A stretch of DNA of 64,000 nt from Phycisphaerales bacterium (GTDB lineage Bacteria; Planctomycetota; Phycisphaerae; UBA1845): the NCBI GenBank assembly GCA_020852275.1, contig JADZBE010000020.1, positions 124,001-188,000 of the forward strand, written 5' to 3'. Made by a program: the position numbers and the translations under genes. This document shows positions 40,536-55,831 of this stretch, piece by piece (position 1 is the first letter of the stretch; the number at the start of each line of letters is the position of its first letter). The notes beneath the pieces are model-generated. The model was given only the letters and a program-made list of their open reading frames with translations, searched no databases and had not been told where the DNA came from.

Positions 40536-41480
40536 TCAGACGCCGCACAAGGCCGAGCCGCTGGCGTGTCTCGCCAGGCATGCCTCGGCGCATTGGCGGC
40601 AGACCCCGCTCGCCGTGTCCCAGCCGTCGCGCCGCTCCACCAGGATTCGCACAAGGCGACGGCCCGCCTCGGACTGGAGGTCGAACCAGTCGAACGTGGA
40701 GAAACCGCACAGCGTGCAGGGCGACCCGAGCGTCTCTCGAAGGTCTCCGCCGCCCGCGTTCGATTCTTCCCAGCCGGGCAGGCGACGCGGATCCTGTGCC
40801 ATGGCCATGAGCGCGGAATGATCGAGCTTCGCCGGCGCCCACAACGCCTCGAACGCCGCGACCGGCGGATTGAATCGCCCGCCGAACGACCGCAGGAACC
40901 CGTTCCGCAGCGCCGTCTTTCTACCGCCCGCGATGTGACCGGCGGACGTCAGGCGGCTCTCCACATAGACGTTCCACATGACGTGATAACGATCGCGGAC
41001 GAGGTTGTCCTGGGGGGACTGGCCGGCCAGGTCGGCGGCGCGATATTGAAACGCCGGGTCCATCATGTCGGCCACATGCTGCAGCTCGCGGCGCATTTCA
41101 TCTCGGCAGGGGTCGGGGTCGGCCAAGTGCTCGGGTGTAAGCTGAACCAGGACGGTGCGCGTGGCAGAAGGGTCGTCGTCACGCTGATACAGCTCGATGG
41201 ACTCCTGCCTGGCCCGCGCCGCCTGCCGGACGAGGCATCGATCGGCTTTGCCGGCGACAATGGGCTGCTCCGCCAGCAGATCTTCGACAAAGCGGTTCAG
41301 GCCAAGCTGCTGGAACATCTCGGCATAGGCCTGGTGAAATCTCGCGTCGCGGGCCGTTCCCGCAGGGAGCAGGTAGAGCGGGTCAAGCACGGCGTGAACG
41401 GCGGGTTCGAGCTGCGGCTCGACGCGGACGCGGTGAAAAACGGCCAGTTCGATGAGGCGCGGGTCGTATTCAAACTTCAT
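40536..41480 (-). CDS. Uncharacterised protein with C-terminal Cys4 motif, end of the nxr-like block
   Basis: 314 residues. A GGAGGAG site precedes the ATG at 41480. Cytoplasmic (no signal peptide). The body is helical (HRVRVEPQLEPAVHAVLDPLYLLPAG, RQAARARQESIELYQRDDDPSA). The C-terminal 60 residues hold CTLCGFSTFDWFDL and CRQCAEAC, a CxxC...CxxC arrangement suited to one zinc or an Fe-S cluster. I do not recognise the family. Lying 18 bases after the TorD-like gene in the molybdoenzyme block, it is a candidate maturation or redox accessory protein. Confidence 0.75.
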   Translation of the reverse strand: MKFEYDPRLIELAVFHRVRVEPQLEPAVHAVLDPLYLLPAGTARDARFHQAYAEMFQQLGLNRFVEDLLAEQPIVAGKADRCLVRQAARARQESIELYQRDDDPSATRTVLVQLTPEHLADPDPCRDEMRRELQHVADMMDPAFQYRAADLAGQSPQDNLVRDRYHVMWNVYVESRLTSAGHIAGGRKTALRNGFLRSFGGRFNPPVAAFEALWAPAKLDHSALMAMAQDPRRLPGWEESNAGGGDLRETLGSPCTLCGFSTFDWFDLQSEAGRRLVRILVERRDGWDTASGVCRQCAEACLARHASGSALCGV

Positions 41481-41498: not shown

Positions 41499-42311
41499 CT
41501 AGTCGCGGTCCATGCCGAGCTGCACAAGGCGATCGCCGCCGCCCGGCACGTTTTCCTCGATGCCGCACGAGAATTCAACATCTTTCTCCGGATCGCGCGG
41601 GCAGACTTCAAGGAACGACGGACCCGTCGGAGCCTGGACGCGCCGGCACTCGCCTTCCAGAAACGACAGCAGCAGGCCTGCCGCCGCGCCGTAGAACGAG
41701 CGACCGTCCGCCTCGATGACGCGACGTGCGAAGGACGGCGCCCACCGTCCCAGGTGCTCGGTGAGAAACTCGCGCTCGGCATCCGCCACCACTTCGGCGC
41801 CGGCGGCGAATCCGCGACGAACGGCTTCCGCGGCGCGCGTTCCCAGAATCGCCATGAACTCGCACTCCACGCTCACATGGTCGATGCGCTCGGACGTCGC
41901 GTCGGCGAGCTGCAACCCGAAGGCGTTGTAGAAACCCGAAATATCCGCGAGCTGCGGGGATTGCTGGACGATGTCCTGCTTGCCGTACTCCATCTCATAG
42001 GAGGGACATCGACCGTGTGCCGTGTGGCCAAAGAGCCGCTGGAAATCCTCGCGCAGTCGATCCAGCGCGTCCTGCGGCTGATCCGCGGCGCAGATGGAAG
42101 TGAAGGCGTCCTCAAGCTCGCCAATCAGCCGGGACAAAGAGGCGTCCAAGTCCGCCGCCGTTTTCCGCACGTACACCCACCGCAATGGATCGTCCAGGAG
42201 CTTGCAGAGGTCCTCGTCGGGATAGCGAAACACGTTCGCCAGCAGCGCATAGACGGCGCCGCGCGTCTCCGCCCGTTGGGCTTGAATGTCCGTCGTTTGG
42301 TCCGTGCTCAT
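41499..42311 (-). CDS. TorD/NarJ-type molybdoenzyme chaperone
   Basis: 270 residues, all-helical. GGGAG precedes the ATG at 42311. The motif CPSYEMEYG with surrounding ...VYALLANVFRYPDEDL at the start and LQLADATSERIDHVSVECEFMAIL in the middle fits the TorD/DmsD/NarJ superfamily, which holds the apo catalytic subunit until the molybdenum cofactor is inserted and guards its Tat signal. It immediately follows the nxrB-like gene, as expected for a specific chaperone of the NxrA-like subunit. Confidence 0.9.
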   Translation of the reverse strand: MSTDQTTDIQAQRAETRGAVYALLANVFRYPDEDLCKLLDDPLRWVYVRKTAADLDASLSRLIGELEDAFTSICAADQPQDALDRLREDFQRLFGHTAHGRCPSYEMEYGKQDIVQQSPQLADISGFYNAFGLQLADATSERIDHVSVECEFMAILGTRAAEAVRRGFAAGAEVVADAEREFLTEHLGRWAPSFARRVIEADGRSFYGAAAGLLLSFLEGECRRVQAPTGPSFLEVCPRDPEKDVEFSCGIEENVPGGGDRLVQLGMDRD

Positions 42312-42444: not shown

Positions 42445-43722
<1,278 letters not shown>

Positions 43723-43867
43723 AGCCATTCCTCCGAATATGCCGGGGTAATCCCCTGCTTGCCCGCGGCCGCCAGGGCCGCAATCCCAATGACTGATGAC
43801 AATCCTTATCCCTGTCCGAGCAACGCTGTAACGCATCCAGCCGCGACCGCGGCGCCGCTTACGTGGC

Positions 43868-44455
43868 TCAGCCCACGCCGAAGGCCTGCTTGCGCAGCGA
43901 GTCCGCCAGCTTCAGGTACCGCTCATGCTTACCCGGGTCGCCATTGTGCTGCTCCGCCCGATCGAACGCCTCGATCATGGCCTTCTGCTGTGCTTCGCTG
44001 AGCATCTGGTCCGCCAGGTTGAACAACACGTCGTCTTCCTTCTGAATGTGGAATCGCAACATGCTGATGTAATCGCCGGCCGCCGTCTGAACCGCGGCGA
44101 CGGCGGCAGGCTCGCCGCCGGCCGCGCCGTCGAGGTTTTCGGATACGCGCTTGAGCAGGCGGCGACCCTGTTCATGCTCATTCAACATGCATCCAATCGG
44201 ACCGCCGTCCTTCGGGACGCCGGCGGCCTCAAGGACGGGAAACAGCTCGTCCTCTTCTTTATGGTGATGGCATCCGTCGGCGAAGTTGCGGAAGAAGTCC
44301 AGGGCGCTTGTAAAGAAAGCCTTGTCAATGCGGCCGGAGCGAAGCATCTGCTCCACCGAATCGAGCACACCTTCAATCACGCGATGTTCGTCTTTAAGAA
44401 TCTGCGTCGCCCTCGAGGCGACGGTTGAGCCATGACATGAGCAGCAGTGTGACAT
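43868..44455 (-). CDS. Hemerythrin HHE-domain protein 1
   Basis: 195 residues. GGAG lies eight bases before the ATG at 44455. Iron ligands read in order H-RVIEGV, H-HHKEEDELFP, HEQGRRLL and HIQKEDDVLF, the two HHE cation-binding motifs of a di-iron hemerythrin. It begins with a Cys/His cluster MSHCCSCHGS, which formally matches CxxCH but lacks an export signal. Bacterial hemerythrins bind O2 or NO and may detoxify or sense them. It lies between nxrA and nxrB in the same direction, so it is probably in the operon. Confidence 0.9.
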   Translation of the reverse strand: MSHCCSCHGSTVASRATQILKDEHRVIEGVLDSVEQMLRSGRIDKAFFTSALDFFRNFADGCHHHKEEDELFPVLEAAGVPKDGGPIGCMLNEHEQGRRLLKRVSENLDGAAGGEPAAVAAVQTAAGDYISMLRFHIQKEDDVLFNLADQMLSEAQQKAMIEAFDRAEQHNGDPGKHERYLKLADSLRKQAFGVG

Positions 44456-44476: not shown

Positions 44477-44797
44477 CTATTCAAGCACGGGCAGTCCCAG
44501 TCCGCCGGGCTGCATGGTTGTTTCCAGTCGTCCGCGGGCAAGCGGGCCCCACTTGGCCACCTCTTCATCAATCATCGCGCGGATGACGCCCTCTCCCAGC
44601 ACGCGCCGCGCCAGCGACGGGCCGGCAAACTCGTCTCCGAGGAATATCTGTTGGATCCTGTCCGCATCGAACCCCAGTCTGGCGTATTCCTCAATGAAGC
44701 AGCAGGCCATGTCCTTCATGGCTTCATCGTCGTCCGTTTCCACGCCGACGCCGTGCAGCGTCAGCGGATCCGTCGGATCAGGATCGTCATACGGCAT
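44477..44797 (-). CDS. 106-aa protein of unknown function in the nxr-like block
   Basis: GGGGAGG precedes the ATG at 44797. Acidic, cytoplasmic (MPYDDPDPTDPLTLHGVGVETDDDEAMKDM...), with LARRVLGEGVIRAMIDEEVAKWGPLA near the end. Its start overlaps the preceding hemerythrin's 3' end by 11 bases, a coupled arrangement. I do not recognise the family; similar small proteins accompany DMSO reductase-family operons, but I cannot state a role. Confidence 0.7.
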   Translation of the reverse strand: MPYDDPDPTDPLTLHGVGVETDDDEAMKDMACCFIEEYARLGFDADRIQQIFLGDEFAGPSLARRVLGEGVIRAMIDEEVAKWGPLARGRLETTMQPGGLGLPVLE

Positions 44798-45347
44798 GGG
44801 CGGTCCTCCCCAAGTCCGGGCACGGCGGCGTCGGCAGCCGCAGCAACATGCCCTTGTCGTCGAACTGATCGAGCATGGGATACAGATGCGTCTGCTCGCG
44901 CAGATTGTGGTGCTCGAGCACGTGCTTGAGCAGCCGCTGCCGTTCTATCACGGTCACCAGGTCGCGCGACGCCAAGGGTGCCTGCAGCCGCTCAAAGAGG
45001 CCGCTGAACTCACCGAGCAGTTTGCGGATGCGGTCATGTTCGGCACGAAACACATCCACGCCGCCTCCCACCGGGGGATCCGGCATGAGGGCGTAAACCG
45101 GGAGGAGCTGATCATCCTCGATCTGCATGTGATCAAGCAACGCGTCGCGGAACGCGAAGAATCTCTCCTTCGCCTCCAGCACGCGGCCCTCGACCAGAGC
45201 GTCCTGATGCGCGGCGAACGCTTCGTCCAGAACGTCATGCGCCCCCACCATCGCAACATACGCATTGCTGCGCAACCGGGGGGCCGACTCGTGAGCACAC
45301 GAGTGTGTTCCTCGGCATGAGCAGTGGTGTTGTGTCGCAGTGGTCAT
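44787..45347 (-). CDS. Hemerythrin HHE-domain protein 2
   Basis: 186 residues. Ligands: HDVLDEAFAAH, HMQIEDDQLLPVY, EHDRIRKLLGEF and HHNLREQTHLYPMLD (HHE motifs). Like its neighbour at 43868 it starts with a Cys/His-rich patch (HHCSCRGTHSCAH). It follows nxrA by 68 bases and overlaps the 106-aa gene by 11 bases. Probably an O2/NO-binding di-iron protein, by family only. Confidence 0.88.
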   Translation of the reverse strand: MTTATQHHCSCRGTHSCAHESAPRLRSNAYVAMVGAHDVLDEAFAAHQDALVEGRVLEAKERFFAFRDALLDHMQIEDDQLLPVYALMPDPPVGGGVDVFRAEHDRIRKLLGEFSGLFERLQAPLASRDLVTVIERQRLLKHVLEHHNLREQTHLYPMLDQFDDKGMLLRLPTPPCPDLGRTAHAV

Positions 45348-45415: not shown

Positions 45416-48400
45416 TCATCCTTCCTCGATGATGTCATCCGTCTTGGCGCCGTATTCGCCCAGGAACCCGCCGGCGAGATACCGCTGCATGATGTCGCTC
45501 TCGCCGCCCGGGCTCATGCCCGTCGTCGCCGCCGACCAGATGCCCTTGCCGCCCAATCCGCCGTCTTCGGCTTTGACCACGCGGACCAGCGTTTCTTTGG
45601 GAACGGTGTTGACCGCATGATTGTCGGCCTCGCCGCCGAAGATGAATCCCATGAACACCTTGGCCTTGTGAAAAAGCGTGTCCGTCTGGTGCATGGGCAT
45701 GTGCCAGTTGCGCGTCACGCTCTGCTGCGAGCCGTAGCGCAGGTTGGCCTGATACCCGTCATCGCTTAGCGCCCGCCCGTCTTTTCGGGTTGCCTGGGCC
45801 TTGACGCTTTTCTCGGTGGCGACATAGGGCGCGTGCTTCATCATCACCGTGCTGTACGGGTAGGCCGGATTGTATGTCACGCGCAACATGCAGCGGGCGA
45901 CTTTGTAGAACGGGTCACTGGGATCCGCGCCGCGGTAAGGTCGGTCGGCAGGATTGGCGTCCACATATACGTAGTCGCCGTTGTTGATGCCGAGATCCCT
46001 CGCGGCCTGCGGATTCATGTGGAGCTGATGCTCGCCGACATAGGGCGCTCTGCGGTCCGTGCGGTGCGGATCGCCGAAGTTGCTGTCGTACATCATGTGC
46101 CAGTCCACGTTGCTCCAACTGCTGTGGACGCGATGCCGCGTCTTGGGCGTGATGCAATAGAAGCTAAAACCGCGCTTCCAGAGAAAGTTCTGCGATTTCT
46201 TCACGTCCGGCCAAGACATCTTGATGTTTCGGACGGTGCGCTCGTCCCAGTGCTCTGCATCGGGCGAGATGCCATAATCGTCCGGGCGAATGTAGGGATT
46301 CGTGGAAACAATGGCATTCGGCAGGAACGGAGTGGCCTCCGGCGCCTCGCGGTGGACGATGAAGTTCTCGCCGTATTCAATGGCCTCAGGCACGTCCGAG
46401 TACGCGTGCAGGCGACCGGTGTCCGTGTGGAACGGCTGATCCTCGTGGATCTGCTCCCAGAAAGGAATCCGCGGGTAGGTGCGGAACAGCATGAGCGCCG
46501 CCCCCGGCGTGCCGTACTTGCCCGCCATGATGTCTTCCAGCTTGTAGCCGGCGGTCGTCGTGCAGGTGTCAAGCAGGCGCTGGATGTAGATCGAGCGTTT
46601 ACCCTCCAGCTCAAACTTGAAGTACTCGGCGAATCGCTTGTCCTTCGTTTCCTCCGTCATCGCCTTGGCGATGCCCGCCAGGATTGAAAGATCGTCCTTG
46701 GATTCGAAGATGGGCTTGATGCCGCCCTTCCATATCTGAAGGAATGGGTTGGAGCAGGAGGCGGTCATTTCCAGATCCTGAAACTCGACCCAACTGTTGG
46801 CCGGCAGACCGATGTCGGAATACTGCACCGACGCCGTCATGACGATGTCCTGCGCGATGATCATTTCAATCATCGGGTTGACGTTTTTAAACATGTCATA
46901 GCAGTGCTTGGCGTTGTTGAAAAGATTGACGTTGGTGAAATGCAGGGCCTTGGTCGGCGTCGGCATATGCGTCTTGCCGGTAAAGCACTTGTGGCCGTAC
47001 TTGGGAGTCTCCACAAGCAAGGGCCGATCGCCGTGATTCCAGTAGGCCGGCTCTTCGTCCTTGCAATAGCCGTGTGCCTTGACGTCCTTGCCGGCCGCCT
47101 TCTCGTCGAGGTTCGGCTCAAACGGATCCTCGGCCACCCAGCCCTTAAAGCCGGGACCGGTGATCTTGCTGCCCTGAAAGAGCGCGGCCTTGTAGTTGCC
47201 CGCCCAGGTGTGGCATCCAGCGCCGGGGCGCCCGATGTTTCCAGTCAGCATCAGGGGCAGGTAGGCGGCGCGATTGGCTTCCGTTGCGTGGAACCAGTGG
47301 TTAATGCCCTCGCCCTGGTGAATGGCGACGGGACCCTTGTTCTTCGTCGTCTCCCAGATGTCCTTGGCCAAGCGCTCGATCATTTCCTTCGGGCAATGCG
47401 TCATTTCCGCGACGCTGTCGAGTCCGTAGTCCTTCAAGTGGATTTGATAAAGATGCCAAAGCGTCGCCACTTCCACTTCTCTGCCGTCAACGAGCTTGAT
47501 CTTCCATGTGCCGTCGAGAGCGGGATCGTGGCTCTCCGCCTTCTTGCCGACGTCGTCGCGAGTCAGCGCCACAGGCTTGTTCGACTTGGAATCCCAGATG
47601 ACTCGATCGCCGATCTTCTTCTGCTGCTCCTCCGTGAGCCCCTGCACCTTGTAGCTGACGCCGTCCTTGGACATGGCGCTCTTGTAATCGGGGAACACCT
47701 CGTCGGCGCGGAGGCGTTTGAGGTTGTCCAGCCTGACCAGCAGCGGAAAGTCAGTGAATGTCTTGACAAATTTCTCGTCGTACCACTTGTTGTCGATCAT
47801 CAGACGCGTAATGCCCAGCCAGAGCGAGGCGTCGGTGGCGGGACGGATCGGCATCCAATAATCAGCTTTCGTGCTCGGCGCGCCGTACTCAGGCGCAATG
47901 ACCACAATGCGGCCGCCGCGCTCCATGCACTCAATGAACCAGTGGGAGTCCGTAAGCTTGTTCTCCACGAGGTTCTTGCCGTCCATGATGATGAGCTTGG
48001 AGAACCGCAGGTCGTTGAAGTCGCAGTCGGACGCCTGAAGTCCGTGGACCCACGGATGCCCGGGCGCCTGGTCGCCGTGCCAGGTGTAGTTGCTCCAGTT
48101 GCGTCCGGCCTTGGCCTCCTCCGGCTTGACGCCTCGAACGATGGTGTCAAGGATCGCCATGGAGTTGTTAAGGCGATAAATGCCATACTTGCCCATGACC
48201 CCAAGGAGACCCATGCCGCCGCGCATCTTCAGCGTGCGGGTCCCCGCGCCGCCCATGTCGGCGATCATCTCTTCAGGATATCCCTGCTTTTTGAGTTTCT
48301 CCGCGCCCTCCTTGCCGCTGTAGCGCTTGGCGATGGAGACGTAGGCCTTGGCAATGTACTTGAAAATCTCATCCCAGCCGATGCGGACGTGGACGTCGCT

Positions 48401-48904
48401 GCCGCGGCTGTCGAACTTGAACTTGGAGCGATTATTGTCCGCGTCAAGGTCGGGAAAGCCCGCATCCGCCCAATCTTTCCAGCCCTTGCGCACGATCGGG
48501 TACTTCAGGCGATAAGGGCCATACACGATGCGATGGAAGGTGTAGCCCTTTGCGCATTGGCGCGGGTTCCAGTTGGCCGTGGCCTTGTTGCCATAGAGAT
48601 CGGAATAGTCCTGGTAATTGTATTGGGCGCCCATGCGCGTGATCACGCCGTTGCGCAGGTAGGCCTGAACGCGGCAGGCGTGCGTGTCGTTGGGGGAGCA
48701 GACCCAACTGAATTTGCTGTCATAGGCGAACTGGTCACGGTAAATCTTCTCCCAATCCCGCGCCGGATACCCCGCCAGAGGGTTGCCAACATCTGGACGA
48801 GACGCCAGCGACTTGAGCGGCCAACCCAACGTGCCCGCGGCGCCCACGGCCGCACTGCTCGTGACCAGAAAATCCCGCCGTGTCTGACCCTTCATTTCGC
48901 TCAT
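45416..48904 (-). CDS. nxrA: Nitrite oxidoreductase-like catalytic subunit (Mo-bisMGD, Tat-exported)
   Basis: 1162 residues; AGGAG precedes the ATG at 48904. The twin-arginine signal RRDFL at 9-13, with a hydrophobic stretch to about residue 34, puts the enzyme in the periplasm. The N-terminal [4Fe-4S] site reads C69-x3-D73-x3-C77...C117; the putative Mo ligand is Asp278 in YTWHGDQAPGHP, the type II DMSO reductase pattern. From memory it resembles NxrA of Nitrospira and anammox bacteria throughout (CSPNDTHAC, NPRQCAKGYTFHR, RYSGKEGAEKL, FVENKL-like ENKLTDSHW). NarG is cytoplasmic with different cluster ligands, so this is not NarG. Nitrite oxidation and nitrate reduction are both possible; related enzymes also reduce chlorate or selenate. 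Confidence 0.93.
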   Translation of the reverse strand: MSEMKGQTRRDFLVTSSAAVGAAGTLGWPLKSLASRPDVGNPLAGYPARDWEKIYRDQFAYDSKFSWVCSPNDTHACRVQAYLRNGVITRMGAQYNYQDYSDLYGNKATANWNPRQCAKGYTFHRIVYGPYRLKYPIVRKGWKDWADAGFPDLDADNNRSKFKFDSRGSDVHVRIGWDEIFKYIAKAYVSIAKRYSGKEGAEKLKKQGYPEEMIADMGGAGTRTLKMRGGMGLLGVMGKYGIYRLNNSMAILDTIVRGVKPEEAKAGRNWSNYTWHGDQAPGHPWVHGLQASDCDFNDLRFSKLIIMDGKNLVENKLTDSHWFIECMERGGRIVVIAPEYGAPSTKADYWMPIRPATDASLWLGITRLMIDNKWYDEKFVKTFTDFPLLVRLDNLKRLRADEVFPDYKSAMSKDGVSYKVQGLTEEQQKKIGDRVIWDSKSNKPVALTRDDVGKKAESHDPALDGTWKIKLVDGREVEVATLWHLYQIHLKDYGLDSVAEMTHCPKEMIERLAKDIWETTKNKGPVAIHQGEGINHWFHATEANRAAYLPLMLTGNIGRPGAGCHTWAGNYKAALFQGSKITGPGFKGWVAEDPFEPNLDEKAAGKDVKAHGYCKDEEPAYWNHGDRPLLVETPKYGHKCFTGKTHMPTPTKALHFTNVNLFNNAKHCYDMFKNVNPMIEMIIAQDIVMTASVQYSDIGLPANSWVEFQDLEMTASCSNPFLQIWKGGIKPIFESKDDLSILAGIAKAMTEETKDKRFAEYFKFELEGKRSIYIQRLLDTCTTTAGYKLEDIMAGKYGTPGAALMLFRTYPRIPFWEQIHEDQPFHTDTGRLHAYSDVPEAIEYGENFIVHREAPEATPFLPNAIVSTNPYIRPDDYGISPDAEHWDERTVRNIKMSWPDVKKSQNFLWKRGFSFYCITPKTRHRVHSSWSNVDWHMMYDSNFGDPHRTDRRAPYVGEHQLHMNPQAARDLGINNGDYVYVDANPADRPYRGADPSDPFYKVARCMLRVTYNPAYPYSTVMMKHAPYVATEKSVKAQATRKDGRALSDDGYQANLRYGSQQSVTRNWHMPMHQTDTLFHKAKVFMGFIFGGEADNHAVNTVPKETLVRVVKAEDGGLGGKGIWSAATTGMSPGGESDIMQRYLAGGFLGEYGAKTDDIIEEG

Positions 48905-49061: not shown

Positions 49062-50828
49062 TCAATCGATGACCAGTTTCTGCCAGATGCTGATGTTCTT
49101 CTTGCCGTCGCGGTCGCCCATGGCGCCATTCCAGATGGCAAACGAGACGGGGATGTAATCTCCCCGCTTGAAGAGGCGCTCATCCTGCTCGCCGTGTTCG
49201 TGCGGCAGCTCCATCGTGCGCTGCAACTGCACCGTCCAGACGCCGCGATCGTACACAGCCTGACCTTGGACAATCTGCAGTTCCGAGGGCTTGCCGGAAA
49301 GCGTTCCCGGACCCTTCGCCACCAGGCATTCCACCGGCGTCTTGAGGTTCGAATCCGCAACGAGATTGCCCGCGCCCCACGCGGTGATGAACAGCGGATT
49401 GTGCTCCGTAAGCGCGGCATGGTTGGGACGATCCACCGCGAGCAGATCCTTCGTGTCGTAGGCGGGTTGCGGGTAATGGTCCACTGCTCGATCGGGGAAC
49501 GCAGCGTCGACGTCCTGGTATCCACCGGCGATATTAGTTTGCCGGTCGGCTTTCCACATCCAGATGTTCACGCCGCCGCGGTCGCCCGGACTGCCCATGT
49601 AGAACGGCGGATCGCTGGTCAGGGAGAACTGCAGCGCCACCGCGTCGCGGAACTCATCCTGCTTCACCGCGCGGTCGTCCTTCGTTGGGTCCAGCCAGGA
49701 CATGCGGATGGCCAGCTCTTTCTCATTGTGCAGCGCCTGAACGATCACGCCCTCCACGCGCTGCTCCTCCCACCACAGGGGCGTCATGCCCACATACAGC
49801 GGTCTGGCCTGCTCCCAAGAGGCGTCGGTCGGGCTTGCCGGCAGCATGCCGTACGTATTCGCTGCGACGAGGATTCCCTGATGGAGCTGGGCGCGATCCT
49901 GCGCGCCCGCGCGGGCGAGCGACTGCACGTAGTGAACGAGATTCCAGATGTCCTCCGGCGGGAAGGCCGTGTCATAACCGGGCATCGGCGTGCCGCGCAG
50001 ACCCTTGGCAATGCGGCAGTAGAGCTGGTGCCCTTCCATGCCGCCCTTGAAGATGCCGTTGACGAAGGACCGCGGCGGAACGGGGTAGCCTTCCGCATCG
50101 AACTTCACGGCCTCGGGCACCGGGTGACCATCAACGCCATGGCAGCTCGCGCAGCCTTCCAGGTAGATCTTGCGGCCGCGGAACCAGTGCAGATCGTCGA
50201 AGGAAGGCTCGGCGGCAATCGCCACGGCCGGACCCGCCTGGGTGCGCTCAACGATCAAGGCGTCAAGCTCAGCGTTCTTCATCTTGCCTTCGGCAAGGTC
50301 CTTTGCGAATTTTTCGCGGATGCCCTCCACATGGAGCTGCCGAACAAACTTGACCAGCGCCAGCAAGTCCGAGTTGGGAAGGTGGCCCCAGGGAGGCATC
50401 GCCGATCCGGGCATGCCCCTGCTGATCGTGCGGAGAAGATCCTCGTCGGACGGGATAAGGTTCGCGGTGGTGGCGAGCTTGAAGTCGCCCTGCTTGAAGT
50501 TCCTGGGACGGGGGTTCATGAGGTAAGCGAACTTGCCAAGCCCGTCGCCCTGTTCGCCGTGACAGATGGTGCAGTACTTGGCGAAAAGCTGCGAACCGCG
50601 CGCGAGGACCGGATCGTTCTGGACCTGCGCCTCCGGGGCCGCCGGCCTGCTCTCCACCGTGGCGGTGGGCTTCTTGTCCTGCTGCGCGGAACCGGCGGTC
50701 GACTGGCGCGCGGCGGTTTCATCTCCGCTGCGGGCGCGAGCTTCCGCTGCCGGCGCCGCGCAACCCGCGACCATCAGGAAAACGCCCAACATCGCGCATC
50801 GTATGATGCCTGGCCGAAAACGCTTCAT
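49062..50828 (-). CDS. nxrC: Lipoprotein fusing two cytochrome c domains to a heme-b gamma subunit (NxrC-like)
   Basis: 588 residues from the ATG at 50828, whose ATGA overlaps the Rrf2 stop. A lipobox VAGC at 20-23 anchors it to a membrane. Cytochrome c domain 1: CTICH at 86-90; domain 2: CASCH at 226-230 with a distal MPGYD. From about residue 325 an ethylbenzene-dehydrogenase-like heme-b domain follows (LYVGMTPLWW...LAIRMSWLDP...WKADRQTN...AWGAGN). In the type II DMSO reductase family the gamma subunit binds heme b and is usually separate; fused c hemes would carry electrons directly to or from the membrane. The longer 626-residue frame is an overlap artefact. Confidence 0.85.
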   Translation of the reverse strand: MKRFRPGIIRCAMLGVFLMVAGCAAPAAEARARSGDETAARQSTAGSAQQDKKPTATVESRPAAPEAQVQNDPVLARGSQLFAKYCTICHGEQGDGLGKFAYLMNPRPRNFKQGDFKLATTANLIPSDEDLLRTISRGMPGSAMPPWGHLPNSDLLALVKFVRQLHVEGIREKFAKDLAEGKMKNAELDALIVERTQAGPAVAIAAEPSFDDLHWFRGRKIYLEGCASCHGVDGHPVPEAVKFDAEGYPVPPRSFVNGIFKGGMEGHQLYCRIAKGLRGTPMPGYDTAFPPEDIWNLVHYVQSLARAGAQDRAQLHQGILVAANTYGMLPASPTDASWEQARPLYVGMTPLWWEEQRVEGVIVQALHNEKELAIRMSWLDPTKDDRAVKQDEFRDAVALQFSLTSDPPFYMGSPGDRGGVNIWMWKADRQTNIAGGYQDVDAAFPDRAVDHYPQPAYDTKDLLAVDRPNHAALTEHNPLFITAWGAGNLVADSNLKTPVECLVAKGPGTLSGKPSELQIVQGQAVYDRGVWTVQLQRTMELPHEHGEQDERLFKRGDYIPVSFAIWNGAMGDRDGKKNISIWQKLVID

Positions 50829-51271
50829 AATTGCATCCCCTTGTGGATCCCGGCCTCCCATTCCAGAGGCGCGGAGAATGCGACGTCGAGAATCGACGTG
50901 GTCCTGAGGAACTCCTGATAACATTCGCGAACGGCCCGCCATCTCTCGTGACCCGGACAGGGGTCGTAGTCATTGCATTCGGCGTGCCGAAAGGGACACG
51001 GGCGCTGCTGGGAGAGGAACGGCTCGAAGGGCGTGAGCACCTCGATCAGCGTCGTCATCTCCGGGCTGCGCGTCATGCGGAATCCGCCGCCTTTGCCTCG
51101 CGTTGCTTCGAGCAAGCCTGCCCGCACCAGGTCGCCCAAAATCTTGGACAGATACTTGGGTGGAATGCCCGTGCTCTCCGCGACCTGTCGCCCCGGCACG
51201 GGCCACTCATCCTCGTGCTGAGCGAGATAAACGGCAGCCCGCAATGCGTACCGGCCGGTGCGTGTGATCAT
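50825..51271 (-). CDS. Rrf2-family transcriptional regulator, likely Fe-S
   Basis: 148 residues from the ATG at 51271 (MITRTGRYALRAAVYLAQHE). Winged helix with TGIPPKYLSKILGDLVRAGLLEATRGKGGGFRM and three cysteines C92, C99 and C105 (CPFRHAECNDYDPC), the number and placement of the cluster ligands in IscR/NsrR-type Rrf2 proteins. It overlaps nxrC by four bases (ATGA), so it is translated with the operon and probably controls it in response to NO, O2 or Fe-S state. Upstream ATGs would add 43 implausible residues. Confidence 0.88.
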   Translation of the reverse strand: MITRTGRYALRAAVYLAQHEDEWPVPGRQVAESTGIPPKYLSKILGDLVRAGLLEATRGKGGGFRMTRSPEMTTLIEVLTPFEPFLSQQRPCPFRHAECNDYDPCPGHERWRAVRECYQEFLRTTSILDVAFSAPLEWEAGIHKGMQL

Positions 51272-51302
51272 CTCGGCTCCTGGCCCGAAGCAGTGGAGGA
51301 TA

Positions 51303-51350
51303 TATCTATCCGAATATCGACTCTTGTCAAGCGAGAATTCCTCAGAATTC
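51303..51350 (-). promoter_or_regulatory. Candidate rrf2/nxr promoter with overlapping dyad operator
   Basis: On the minus strand TTGACA (51330-51325), a perfect -35 hexamer, is followed after 16 bases by TAGATA (51308-51303). Immediately upstream is GAATTC-N4-GAATTC (51335-51350), a perfect 6-bp dyad with a four-base spacer. The distance to the rrf2 start (51271) is about 32 bases. Rrf2 autoregulation would fit; binding is inferred. Confidence 0.55.
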
Positions 51351-51571
51351 GGGAAGAATCTACTGAAATAGGGCACATCACCCACACCAACAAGCAACAA
51401 GTCACTATGTACAGTGACAGTTGTTTCAACCTCTGCCAGACTGCGTCAACAGACTCATTTCGGTGCGTACACGGCGGCCTCCAGCGATCAACCAGGGCGA
51501 TCAACGAGCAATCTTCGGGACCCGAAGCCCAAGCGAGGGCGTCCACAGACCTTCGGCTCGATGCGGGCAGA

Positions 51572-53377
51572 TCAGGGAGCTGCCTGCGGGTCGGCAGCGG
51601 ACGTCCGGACGAGGTGCTGCTGGAAAGCTGCGATCTGTGGGTCGTTCGGATTGAGCGTTGCGGCCTGCGAGATTTCGCGTTCGGCCTCTGCGGACTTGCC
51701 GGTCATGGCCAGCCCGACGCCGAGGTTATAGTGCGCGTCGGCTGAATCCGGCGCGAGGACAACCGCGCGCCGCAGGTGCGCGAGGCCCTCGCTTATGGCG
51801 CCTTGTTCGAGCAGCAAGGAACCCAGCTCCAGGTGGACATGGGCGTTGGCGGCATCCAGTCGAAGGGCTTCGCGAAGGTGGCGGATCGCGGGAGAAGCGC
51901 GGCCCTTGCTGATCTCGATCGACGCCGCCGCGCAGTGCAGCTTGCCCAGAGGCGCGATCACCGCCGGAGTCGTAAACAGTCCCCAGCGATCAACGGTTTC
52001 CACGTGGCTCAGCGCGGAGGCAATCTGCGGCGCGAATGATTCCAGATGGACGCTCGCGTCGCCGTCGATGTTGCGACCCAGAGCATGCACCTCTCTCATT
52101 CCCTGCCACGCGTGATAGCAAATCCATCCGCTGTGGATCGAAGCAGCAACGGCGACGAGGAACACGGCGGCGAACAGCACGCCCGCGGGCCGCGTCCGCC
52201 CCTCGACCTTGAGCATCCACCGGTTGAAACGCGCGGTCGGCCGGGTCGCCATGCGCCCAGCGACGACCGTCATGTAGCCCAGGATGATCCCGAAAGAGAT
52301 GCTCAGGAAGAACGGGACCCGTCCATACAACCCCCGGTAGATGAAAACGCCGGCCAGCAGCAGAATCACCAGCATGCCTTCTTCCCACGGCGTGAAGTCA
52401 TACCGGCGGCGCACGGGGACATCGTCCCGCACTTTGTTCATCCAACCGGGCCGGCCGAATCCGAAGCGCACGGCGTCCTCCGGACAGACGCTGACGCAAT
52501 CCAGATCCTTGAGGCACGCTGAATCCACCACCATGCCGTATCGTTGAAGCTCCTCGCCCACGCGCACGTGCGAGGTGCAGACGGACGTGCACAGCCCGCA
52601 GTCGCCGCAGGACTTGACGAGTCGGATGCGCCCCGGGCTGATCTTGTCCGCGACGCGGAACACGGCGCCGTAGGGACAGCCGTACGTGCAGAAGCTGCGT
52701 GAGCCGAGCACATAAACGACCAGAAAACCGCAGACGAAGAACGTCAGCAGCGCGATGCCCGGTCCCGGCAGATTGCGCCAGAAATTCTCGGTCATGAACG
52801 AGGCCCACCCCTGAGCGTCCGTCGTGGTGTGCAGGGTGGGAAACGCCGTCCCCGTCATGGCGCGCTCGATGGCGGGCCATGCGAACATGTACGCCGCGAC
52901 GACGAACGGGGCGAGCATCAGCGTGCGGCTGCGGACGGCCTTGGGCCGGATGCCGACTTTTCCGAGCAGCCACGCGCACAGATCCTGCAGCGCAAGAATG
53001 TGGCAGCCCCACGAACAGAAGAACCGACCCAAGATGCTGGTTGCGAGGACGGCGACGAGCATGAACAGGAAGCCGGCCGTGACGATGCCCAGCTCGACGG
53101 TGTACACGACTTCGTTGAGTTCAAGCGGGGCGAGCGTCCTGCCGGCGATCAGCCAGTGCGTAACATGCGCGGCCATCAGGACATAGACCAGCGCGAGCGT
53201 GGCGGCGCGCCAGCGAGCGAATCGCGACTTGTGCGCATCGTGTGCGGCGCCGTCATCCTGCGGGATCTCAGCGATGGACGGGGTATCGAGGATCGGCAGC
53301 GTCTGCTTGCCGGCGCCCGACCCGCGCCGGCGCGAGCCAGCTTTCGACGGACTCTGTTGCTCCTGCTTCGTGCGCAA
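51572..53377 (-). CDS. NapH-like membrane polyferredoxin with C-terminal TPR domain
   Basis: 601 residues with a TTG start (53377) and GGAAG upstream; the first in-frame ATG lies inside the first transmembrane helix. About five helices with membrane motifs C121SWGC125 and C230TYGC234P, a [4Fe-4S] site C257-x2-C260-x2-C263-x3-C267, and a second site in which Asp291 stands where the second Cys would be (C288...C294-x3-C298). The tail (about 490-595) holds three TPR units. NapH/CcoG-like proteins pass electrons from quinol to periplasmic acceptors. It lies upstream of rrf2-nxrC in the same direction, so may feed the enzyme. Confidence 0.85.
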   Translation of the reverse strand: MRTKQEQQSPSKAGSRRRGSGAGKQTLPILDTPSIAEIPQDDGAAHDAHKSRFARWRAATLALVYVLMAAHVTHWLIAGRTLAPLELNEVVYTVELGIVTAGFLFMLVAVLATSILGRFFCSWGCHILALQDLCAWLLGKVGIRPKAVRSRTLMLAPFVVAAYMFAWPAIERAMTGTAFPTLHTTTDAQGWASFMTENFWRNLPGPGIALLTFFVCGFLVVYVLGSRSFCTYGCPYGAVFRVADKISPGRIRLVKSCGDCGLCTSVCTSHVRVGEELQRYGMVVDSACLKDLDCVSVCPEDAVRFGFGRPGWMNKVRDDVPVRRRYDFTPWEEGMLVILLLAGVFIYRGLYGRVPFFLSISFGIILGYMTVVAGRMATRPTARFNRWMLKVEGRTRPAGVLFAAVFLVAVAASIHSGWICYHAWQGMREVHALGRNIDGDASVHLESFAPQIASALSHVETVDRWGLFTTPAVIAPLGKLHCAAASIEISKGRASPAIRHLREALRLDAANAHVHLELGSLLLEQGAISEGLAHLRRAVVLAPDSADAHYNLGVGLAMTGKSAEAEREISQAATLNPNDPQIAAFQQHLVRTSAADPQAAP

Positions 53378-53557: not shown

Positions 53558-55414
53558 CTACGGCCGCCGCATCGCGCGACGCAGCGCGGCGCGGTCGTCG
53601 CGGTCCACGCCGTTGTCGCCGTCGAAGTCCATCCAGCCGCAAGGCGCCGGCAGCTCGCGGCCGCTTGCTCCCAAGCAGGCGTCCATGGCGCGGCGATCCA
53701 GCCGGTCGAGGTCGCCGTCGCCGTCCGCGTCGCCGCGCATGAAGCCGGCGAACTCGATCGTGCCCTGCGTCATGAGTATCGGCGGGCCTTTGTCGGTGGT
53801 GAGCCACAGGTCGTGCAGGGTTTCGCCCCAGTGGTCCGTGTGGTTCCCATCGCGCAGCGCCTCGATGTAGTGCCGCGTGACGGTCTGATAGTAAACGCGG
53901 ACCTCCGCTCGCACCGCGTCCGGCGGAATCCAGTACGGCGTATCATCCCAATACTGTCCGTCGGCATAGGTGCAGCCCACCGCGGGCGCGCCGGCTTCCT
54001 CATACTTCGCGTTGTTGAAGCCGCGCGGCGGGATGCGGTTGTCCTTGACGATCACGTCCGCCAACGCCATGTGCGTGGTGATGCCGGGCGGATACCCGGT
54101 GGCCTCGGACATGGCCTCGCTGAGACCCACATGCATCTCGTACACGTCGGTGGATTCCTCATCCAGCTCCGCCTCGTCGGCGTCGTAGTGGCCGTATTCT
54201 CGGAGCAACCCGCCATCCGAGCCGAATAGCCGGACGTTGACCCACACGCGCCGGCCCTCGATGTGCCCGGTCGGCAGCTTGTGCCCGGATTCGTTGATGA
54301 CGCGCGTCACCAGCGTTCCGCCTTCCTGCCGCAACTCCAGCGTGGCAGCGCGCTCCAACATGTCCAAAGCCTTGTTGCGACCCGCGCGGAGTGCGGCCTT
54401 GTCCACGGAGTCGTCGTCCTTGTAGTACTCGGCGATGATGTCCAGCACCCATGCGGACGCGCCGGCGAAGTCGTGCACGGCGAGGTCCGAGCGCGAGGAG
54501 CTGTAATACGAGGCCTGTCCCGCCGCCCGAGGCATGTGGCAGTCCTGACAGCAAGCGACGACCGACACGCCGTCGCCGCCGAACCGCCCGTTCATGTCCA
54601 CACCATGCTCCGCGAACTCGCTGAGCTTCCATTCCGTGTAGGTGCGCTCCAGCGGAAAGAGGTGCTGCGGATCGGTGTCGTCCGTGGGTTGGTCAATCTC
54701 GTTGAACTTGTACGTGCCGTCGGGCAGGCGGTTCAGCGTGACGTTGCCGACGTCATGGCAGGTTCCGCAGAAGTTCCCGGAACGGAAGAACTTCGACGGC
54801 ACAACGGAATGGAACGATTCCGTGTCGTCGCGCGGTCCGCGGCGAAGCCCCGTCGGATCCAGCACGAACATCGCGTTGCCGTAGTGCTCGGGGACTTCGG
54901 CCAGCCCTCCCAGCACGCGCTTGTCCTCGTCCGGGCTGAACCGCGAGTCGTAGATCGGATCGGCCATGCTGTGGCAGAAGTGGCAGGCGACGCCCTCGCG
55001 GTCGAAGTCGTCCAGCGTGCTGCCATCCGTGTCGTAGGCGTGGCCCGTGACGAACGACATCGGCACGTGGCAGCGCATGCAGAAGTAGCCGACCTTGTCC
55101 ACGTCCTGATTGGCCGTGGTCATCTGGGCGTAAAAGAGCGGATCGCGCCCGGCCTGCCCCATGAGGCTGCCCGTCCAGGTGGTGTAAGGCTCGGTCTTTC
55201 GCTCGAACAGTCCGTGACATTCGGCGCAGTAGACGGAGGTCTTGATGGCGCTTGCGGGCACGTCGCCGACTTGCGTGCCGGGCAAGTGGAAGTCCTCGAT
55301 GGTGGTGGGCACGACGGCCGCCCCCGCCAGCCCGGTGAGCACCAGACCGCAGATGACGACCCAACATCGTCTGGAGCGGACCTTCGACACAGCGCGCTTG
55401 CTTGATTCGACCAC
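53558..55414 (-). CDS. Pentaheme c-type cytochrome with C-terminal dockerin
   Basis: 618 residues from a GTG at 55414, chosen because GGGGGGAGG lies seven bases before it; the longer frame upstream is not protein-like. Signal peptide near residues 15-33. CxxCH motifs: CAECH 63, CMRCH 112, CHFCH 144, CGTCH 216, CQDCH 289, in a cytochrome c554-like arrangement. A later region contains a metal-site-like pattern (RVINESGHKLPTGH). The last 60 residues are a dockerin: loops DADGDGDLDRLD and DFDGDNGVDRDD. A multiheme cytochrome carrying a dockerin could dock on a cohesin-bearing surface protein; I see no cohesin in the window. Electron carrier role for the nxr-like enzyme is inference. Confidence 0.83.
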   Translation of the reverse strand: MVESSKRAVSKVRSRRCWVVICGLVLTGLAGAAVVPTTIEDFHLPGTQVGDVPASAIKTSVYCAECHGLFERKTEPYTTWTGSLMGQAGRDPLFYAQMTTANQDVDKVGYFCMRCHVPMSFVTGHAYDTDGSTLDDFDREGVACHFCHSMADPIYDSRFSPDEDKRVLGGLAEVPEHYGNAMFVLDPTGLRRGPRDDTESFHSVVPSKFFRSGNFCGTCHDVGNVTLNRLPDGTYKFNEIDQPTDDTDPQHLFPLERTYTEWKLSEFAEHGVDMNGRFGGDGVSVVACCQDCHMPRAAGQASYYSSSRSDLAVHDFAGASAWVLDIIAEYYKDDDSVDKAALRAGRNKALDMLERAATLELRQEGGTLVTRVINESGHKLPTGHIEGRRVWVNVRLFGSDGGLLREYGHYDADEAELDEESTDVYEMHVGLSEAMSEATGYPPGITTHMALADVIVKDNRIPPRGFNNAKYEEAGAPAVGCTYADGQYWDDTPYWIPPDAVRAEVRVYYQTVTRHYIEALRDGNHTDHWGETLHDLWLTTDKGPPILMTQGTIEFAGFMRGDADGDGDLDRLDRRAMDACLGASGRELPAPCGWMDFDGDNGVDRDDRAALRRAMRRP

Positions 55415-55831
55415 AGATGAGCCTCCCCCCTGATTGACCACGGAAACGGATCGCCGACCCCGCCATCTCGCAGCAGGACTCGGACGAGTCCGGCATATTA
55501 ACGCGACATAAGGACGTATTTGTAGTTTATATCGTTCGCGGTACCGAATCAAGGCGGGGATGCGGCGCGATTTGCCCGGTGGATTATCGCCTGGGAATGG
55601 GCACTCGCTGCCAAGCCTCGATCTGATCGGACTGGACGCGCCCAACTCATGCCTACGAACGGCCGGCCGACGCTCCCGCCCTTGCGCCGCGGGCCGGGTT
55701 ACCAGGAACGGGAGACGAGGCTCCCTTCATGCATGGACAACGCCGATGCGGCGAAGGCGCCCTGTGCATCCCGGATGCCGCGCTGCGAGACTGAATCGTA
55801 TGCGGGATCCGCTCTCAAAGCAGGCTCAGCT
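55415..55831. other. Gene-free interval with AT-rich promoter-like stretch
   Basis: 417 bases. Only notable: an AT-rich segment near 55497-55540 (CATATTAACGCGACATAAGG and TTTGTAGTTTATATCG), in contrast to the GC-rich surroundings; it is placed to be the promoter of the minus-strand cytochrome gene. No convincing gene. Confidence 0.5.

Follow-up and report, generated by a model that had tools for sequence, protein, structure and literature searches.

A diheme cytochrome/heme-b fusion protein as the probable gamma subunit of a Kuenenia-type nitrite oxidoreductase in non-anammox Planctomycetota

Results

The window, which is the whole 64,000-nucleotide stretch of DNA that was analysed, encodes on its minus strand a protein that joins a lipoprotein-type signal peptide, two cytochrome c domains, and an ethylbenzene-dehydrogenase gamma-like (EB_dh) heme-b domain in a single chain. 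We think it probable (about 75%) that this fusion is the gamma subunit, the equivalent of NxrC, of a periplasmic Kuenenia-type nitrite oxidoreductase/nitrate reductase, where it would dock on NxrB and provide a three-heme electron path. We favor this reading because the gene lies beside nxrA, the heme-b ligands are conserved, and the genome holds no other gamma gene. The features, in window positions, are as follows.

40536..41480, minus strand: 314-aa CxxC...CxxC protein without a family
41499..42311, minus strand: TorD/NarJ-type chaperone for the Mo subunit
42445..43836, minus strand: nxrB-like iron-sulfur subunit, 463-aa ORF
43868..44455, minus strand: hemerythrin-domain protein between nxrA and nxrB
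44477..44797, minus strand: 106-aa protein without a known family
44787..45347, minus strand: second hemerythrin-domain protein
45416..48904, minus strand: nxrA-like catalytic Mo subunit, Tat signal, 1162 aa, Kuenenia NXR-A type
49062..50828, minus strand: fused gamma subunit (predicted), 588 aa, with lipoprotein-type signal peptide, two cytochrome c domains, and EB_dh heme-b domain
49098..49766, minus strand: EB_dh domain, residues 355-577
49596-49598 and 49098-49100, minus strand: heme-b ligand candidates M411 and K577 within the EB_dh domain
49917..50180, minus strand: cytochrome c domain 2, residues 217-304, CASCH 226-230, axial Met candidate M282
50343..50606, minus strand: cytochrome c domain 1, residues 75-162, CTICH 86-90, axial Met candidate M144
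50760..50771, minus strand: lipobox VAGC, residues 20-23, predicted lipidated Cys23
50825..51400, minus strand: Rrf2-family regulator, 4-bp overlap with the fusion gene

The fusion gene is one open frame with a single terminal stop and zero internal stops; the first-pass annotation had its coordinates right and gave no strand. The start at 50828 shares 4 bp (ATGA) with the stop of the upstream Rrf2 gene, and AAGGGG lies ∼8 bases ahead of it. The Rrf2 regulator, which has a Cys-rich stretch and is translationally coupled to the fusion gene, also precedes the fusion at most of the closely related orthologous loci, and it may sense NO or redox state.

The N-terminus consists of a basic/hydrophobic signal and a lipobox (LMVAGC, Cys23), followed by a low-complexity spacer to about residue 70. 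The first-pass annotation proposed that the lipobox anchors the protein in the membrane, and the VAGC motif is indeed present in the window protein. As a conserved defining trait of the fusion, however, the lipobox fails: its strict form occurs in only 10 of 30 close orthologues and a loose form in 18 of 30, and two of the three same-genus orthologues have none. Lipid attachment to the membrane is thus a plausible prediction for the window protein that varies by lineage and is not general.

Each of the three domains scores above its curated Pfam cut-off, and in one frame, as had been proposed for a polypeptide carrying CTICH, CASCH, and a heme-b domain. EB_dh (PF09459) matches residues 355-577 with 81.1 bits against a cut-off of 33.3 (E 1.6e-22), Cytochrom_C matches residues 217-304 (E 1.5e-19), and Cytochrome_CBB3 matches residues 75-162 (E 1.1e-18); the two cytochrome models each have two matching stretches in the protein. 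With TIGR03477, the model for the heme b subunit of type II DMSO reductases, the fusion reaches 115.5 bits, which is below the cut-off of 169.85 and counts against the gamma-subunit reading.

The heme-b ligands of Kuenenia NXR-C are Met155 and Lys305 (PMC8387239). These residues (7b04 chain C) align with M411 and K577 of the fusion, the Met/Lys pair that the first-pass annotation had suggested looking for. Among 67 fusions, the Met is kept in 66 and the Lys in 65, and both CxxCH motifs, M144, M282, and K577 are invariant in 23 aligned fusion sequences. The AF2 model of the fusion has a mean pLDDT of 66.9, with residues 437-490 poorly modelled. The first four matches in a fold search with this model are NXR-C (two chains, 7b04_C/O, target TM 0.62-0.64), the diheme protein of the Kuenenia HAO-like complex Kustc0457/Kustc0458 (6h5l_B, TM 0.79), and EbdC, the gamma subunit of EBDH (2ivf_C, TM 0.76). 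In the model, the last cytochrome helix ends at residue 305 and the first EB_dh strand begins at 319; confidence is low over residues 307-314. This leaves a short linker of about ten residues.

The known proteins each resemble one part of the fusion. Kuenenia stuttgartiensis NXR-C (kustd1704) has the EB_dh fold and the corresponding ligands and works with the same type of NxrA, but it is a soluble protein of ∼320 aa that has no c-heme domains, and its acceptor cytochrome is a separate protein (PMC8387239). EbdC has the fold and Met/Lys heme-b ligation in common with the fusion but lacks c hemes and belongs to an enzyme with another substrate. The 6h5l chain B matches the diheme half (E 6.3e-36 by sequence) and is a separate protein without EB_dh.

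The setting of the gene agrees with its having been placed next to NxrA/B. The fusion lies 158 bp upstream of a Kuenenia-type nxrA, and nxrB and torD lie further downstream. The window NxrA aligns end to end with Kuenenia NXR-A (7b04, 1733 bits) and retains the Tat signal and the Mo and FS0 (3Cys/1Asp) ligands; the equivalents of the active-site and FS0 residues C67, N70, D71, C75, C115, and D275 are all present. Relatives of nxrB match from residue 39 of the 463-aa ORF, and an internal Met is the likely start. Judged by these sequences, NxrA and NxrB are predicted to form a periplasmic nitrite oxidoreductase of the Kuenenia/Nitrospira type, running in either the nitrite-oxidizing or the nitrate-reducing direction.

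The source genome is 97% complete in 43 contigs, and the fusion is its only EB_dh gene; we found no second EB_dh gene and no separate NxrC or gamma gene in it. Among other NarG-type Mo enzymes, we found only a formate-dehydrogenase-like one and a weak third match. The genome encodes an octaheme HAO-like protein, an aa3 oxidase (CoxI, II, III), and a cbb3-like ccoNO. The first-pass annotation suggested that the fusion could replace soluble cytochrome partners, but the aa3 CoxII itself lacks a cytochrome c domain, and electron delivery may still depend on a mobile carrier. A diheme lipoprotein-like cytochrome precedes the cbb3-type ccoNO (L125 178-1374, C13 of the source genome) and is 27% identical to the diheme half of the fusion. 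RuBisCO, NrfA, and NirK were not found in the source genome, which therefore gives no sign of the RuBisCO route to autotrophy.

The fusion is not rare, since dozens of independent assemblies carry the same architecture. A contig search returned 22 fusion loci, of which 20 are from Planctomycetota MAGs (58-73% identity), one is from a Hydrogenedentota contig (L023, 37%), and one is from a further planctomycete (35%). Near full-length matches occur in 28 of 100 relatives. In 19 of these 28, no separate EB_dh gene was found, and the extra EB_dh loci that were fetched from fusion-bearing relatives have no nxr genes beside them. After removal of duplicates, the fusion stands directly upstream of nxrA on the same strand in 36 distinct loci, nearly always within 160 bp. 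In the nxrA tree (46 loci), 41 loci have the fusion only (L105 among them, whose NxrA is very divergent), one anammox locus has both forms, and four loci with a more distant NxrA have a plain EB_dh gene. Non-anammox Planctomycetota fusions (L003-L022, L024, and others) share with the window protein the three domains, the ligands, and the site directly upstream of nxrA; the close loci also share the Rrf2 gene, the 106-aa ORF, nxrB, and torD. They vary in the lipobox and in the length of the N-terminal spacer, and in the lineages of L092 and L094 the fusion is placed after nxrB/torD. In other planctomycetes, three loci (L138, L139, L140) combine a second type of NxrA, which is more distant (38-39% identity), with a plain EB_dh gene, and in L138 and L139 a separate c-type cytochrome gene lies beside it.

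Three loci (L084, L085, L144) appear to be anammox loci, as inferred from the similarity of their NxrC and NxrA to those of Kuenenia. Their clusters contain nxrA, a 314-aa protein homologue, torD, nxrB, and a plain nxrC, and ∼4-5 kb away they encode a diheme/EB_dh fusion of 529-540 aa. Like the window protein, this fusion places c heme sites and an EB_dh heme-b domain in one chain within an nxr cluster, and its diheme half also matches 6h5l_B (E 9.5e-55). Unlike the window protein, it has a C-terminal transmembrane helix and a separate NxrC alongside, and the two are only ∼26-29% identical overall. The helix is absent from the window fusion and from 59 other fusions. In the EB_dh tree, the anammox fusion groups with anammox NxrC (support 0.95) and not with the window protein; the tree was rooted only with a partial EbdC sequence, leaving the root uncertain and the order of fusion versus fission not fixed. 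The mean conserved-column agreement of the fused EB_dh domain, compared with anammox NxrC versus the anammox fusion, is 0.45 versus 0.42, a small gap that favors neither.

Discussion

If the fusion is the gamma subunit, its EB_dh domain would bind heme b via Met411 and Lys577 and dock on NxrB, with the linker of roughly ten residues tying it to the two class-I cytochrome c domains. During nitrite oxidation, electrons released at the Mo centre of NxrA would travel along the Fe-S clusters of NxrA/NxrB to heme b and then over the two c hemes; the acceptor beyond them, reached directly or via another cytochrome, could for example be the aa3 or the cbb3-type oxidase that the source genome encodes. 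The N-terminal lipid would keep the complex at the membrane, a task that a signal or anchor helix might take over in relatives without a lipobox.

The same complex may instead run in reverse, drawing electrons from the cytochrome c pool through its diheme domain and acting as a periplasmic nitrate reductase. This alternative concerns direction only and leaves the role of the fusion unchanged; we regard it as a genuine possibility, if somewhat improbable. Kuenenia NXR works in both directions in vitro (PMC8387239), and Thermogutta terrifontis, a planctomycete with an NxrA-type enzyme of this clade (PMC10732223), grows with nitrate (PMC5673643). The lack of a detectable RuBisCO gene points the same way. 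The two terminal oxidases of the source genome speak for oxidation, as does the absence of NrfA and NirK, although the octaheme HAO-like protein could consume nitrite.

A second alternative would make the fusion a planctomycete alt_NxrC, that is, an auxiliary membrane-bound electron carrier fed by a true NxrC or by NxrB and not a structural gamma subunit. For Nitrospina gracilis, alternative forms of NxrC have been described that combine a heme-b domain with 1-3 cytochrome c sites (PMC3578206). In Nitrospira moscoviensis, the 66.8-kDa alt_nxrC_2 is a diheme protein that has a signal peptide and one transmembrane helix, which was proposed as an anchor (PMC6606698). Going by these published descriptions alone, the window fusion resembles alt_NxrC in joining c-type hemes to an EB_dh domain, and its domain order is that of the anammox diheme/EB_dh protein, which coexists with a separate NxrC. 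We nevertheless consider an auxiliary role unlikely. No separate NxrC coexists with the fusion in the source genome, and most of the fusion-bearing relatives likewise have no other EB_dh gene. The C-terminal helix that is found in the anammox form and in the N. moscoviensis protein is missing here, and the anammox form falls apart from the window protein in the tree, the uncertain root notwithstanding.

Separate NxrC and separate diheme cytochromes do occur elsewhere, but a frame error or mis-assembly that merged two such genes has practically no chance of explaining the fusion, which keeps the same domain order in a single frame in 22 independent contigs and many further loci, at 58-73% identity and in relatives at 35-37%; the possibility of a frame error at the domain boundaries, raised in the first-pass annotation, is thereby excluded, and so is a chance occurrence.

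That annotation also took the fusion to be novel and expected few homologues. The database check found many, to a large extent the very case that it had named as counting against novelty, namely the same fusion in NXR clusters. Fusions of c-heme and heme-b domains near nitrite oxidoreductases are already known, and the architecture in itself is not new: it is standard in nxr clusters of non-anammox Planctomycetota and modified in anammox bacteria, and alt_NxrC has been published (PMC3578206, PMC6606698). What is new is that the nxr clusters of these non-anammox planctomycetes have no separate NxrC and that the fusion, without the C-terminal membrane helix of the anammox form, is their only gamma candidate. 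NxrA-type genes of Planctomycetota, including those of Phycisphaerae from the Oslofjord tunnel, have been reported as belonging to possible nitrite oxidizers, with the gamma subunit undescribed (PMC10732223); the OFTM isolate names of two of our loci (L007, L012) follow the style of that study. In the literature searched, whose coverage excludes most subscription journals, we found no paper presenting the fusion as the only gamma subunit in Planctomycetota. The fusion bears on whether non-anammox planctomycetes oxidize nitrite, an ability that has so far been inferred from genomes only.

The electron acceptor of the NXR gamma subunit is unsettled for both nitrite oxidizers and anammox bacteria, and alt_NxrC has had no agreed role since 2013. 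Chicano et al. inferred that electrons from NXR reach nitrite reductase directly or through an unnamed shuttle (PMC8387239). The diheme protein of the Kuenenia HAO-like complex has been described as the redox partner of an HAO-like protein that was proposed to reduce nitrite (PMC6423088). A heme-b domain and a diheme cytochrome in one chain, with no second gamma candidate, would predict what this acceptor is, and the planctomycete fusion of NXR-C-like and 6h5l_B-like parts is an argument, though not proof, for the diheme protein as the partner of NXR-C. It is conceivable, though doubtful, that the covalent b/c/c three-heme conductor is the only NXR gamma in non-anammox Planctomycetota and perhaps the older form, from which anammox NxrC and its membrane-anchored copy derive; if so, the electron acceptor of anammox NXR-C would be a diheme cytochrome resembling 6h5l chain B. 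The fusion-bearing lineage offers a simpler complex for purification.

Several neighboring genes recur with the cluster. The 106-aa ORF, which has no Pfam or NCBIfam match, recurs between nxrA and nxrB in most nxr clusters of non-anammox planctomycetes, with 41-63% identity in the close ones, and possibly encodes an undescribed accessory protein. The two hemerythrin proteins that flank it occur in only part of the related loci. Conservation of the 314-aa CxxC...CxxC protein extends to anammox clusters, where a counterpart with 26-27% identity occupies the kustd1701 position. Upstream of the Rrf2 gene, also on the minus strand, lie a NapH-like/TPR ferredoxin protein (51572-53377) and a multiheme cytochrome (53558-55645), a pair that recurs near nxr clusters in L018, L020, and L103.
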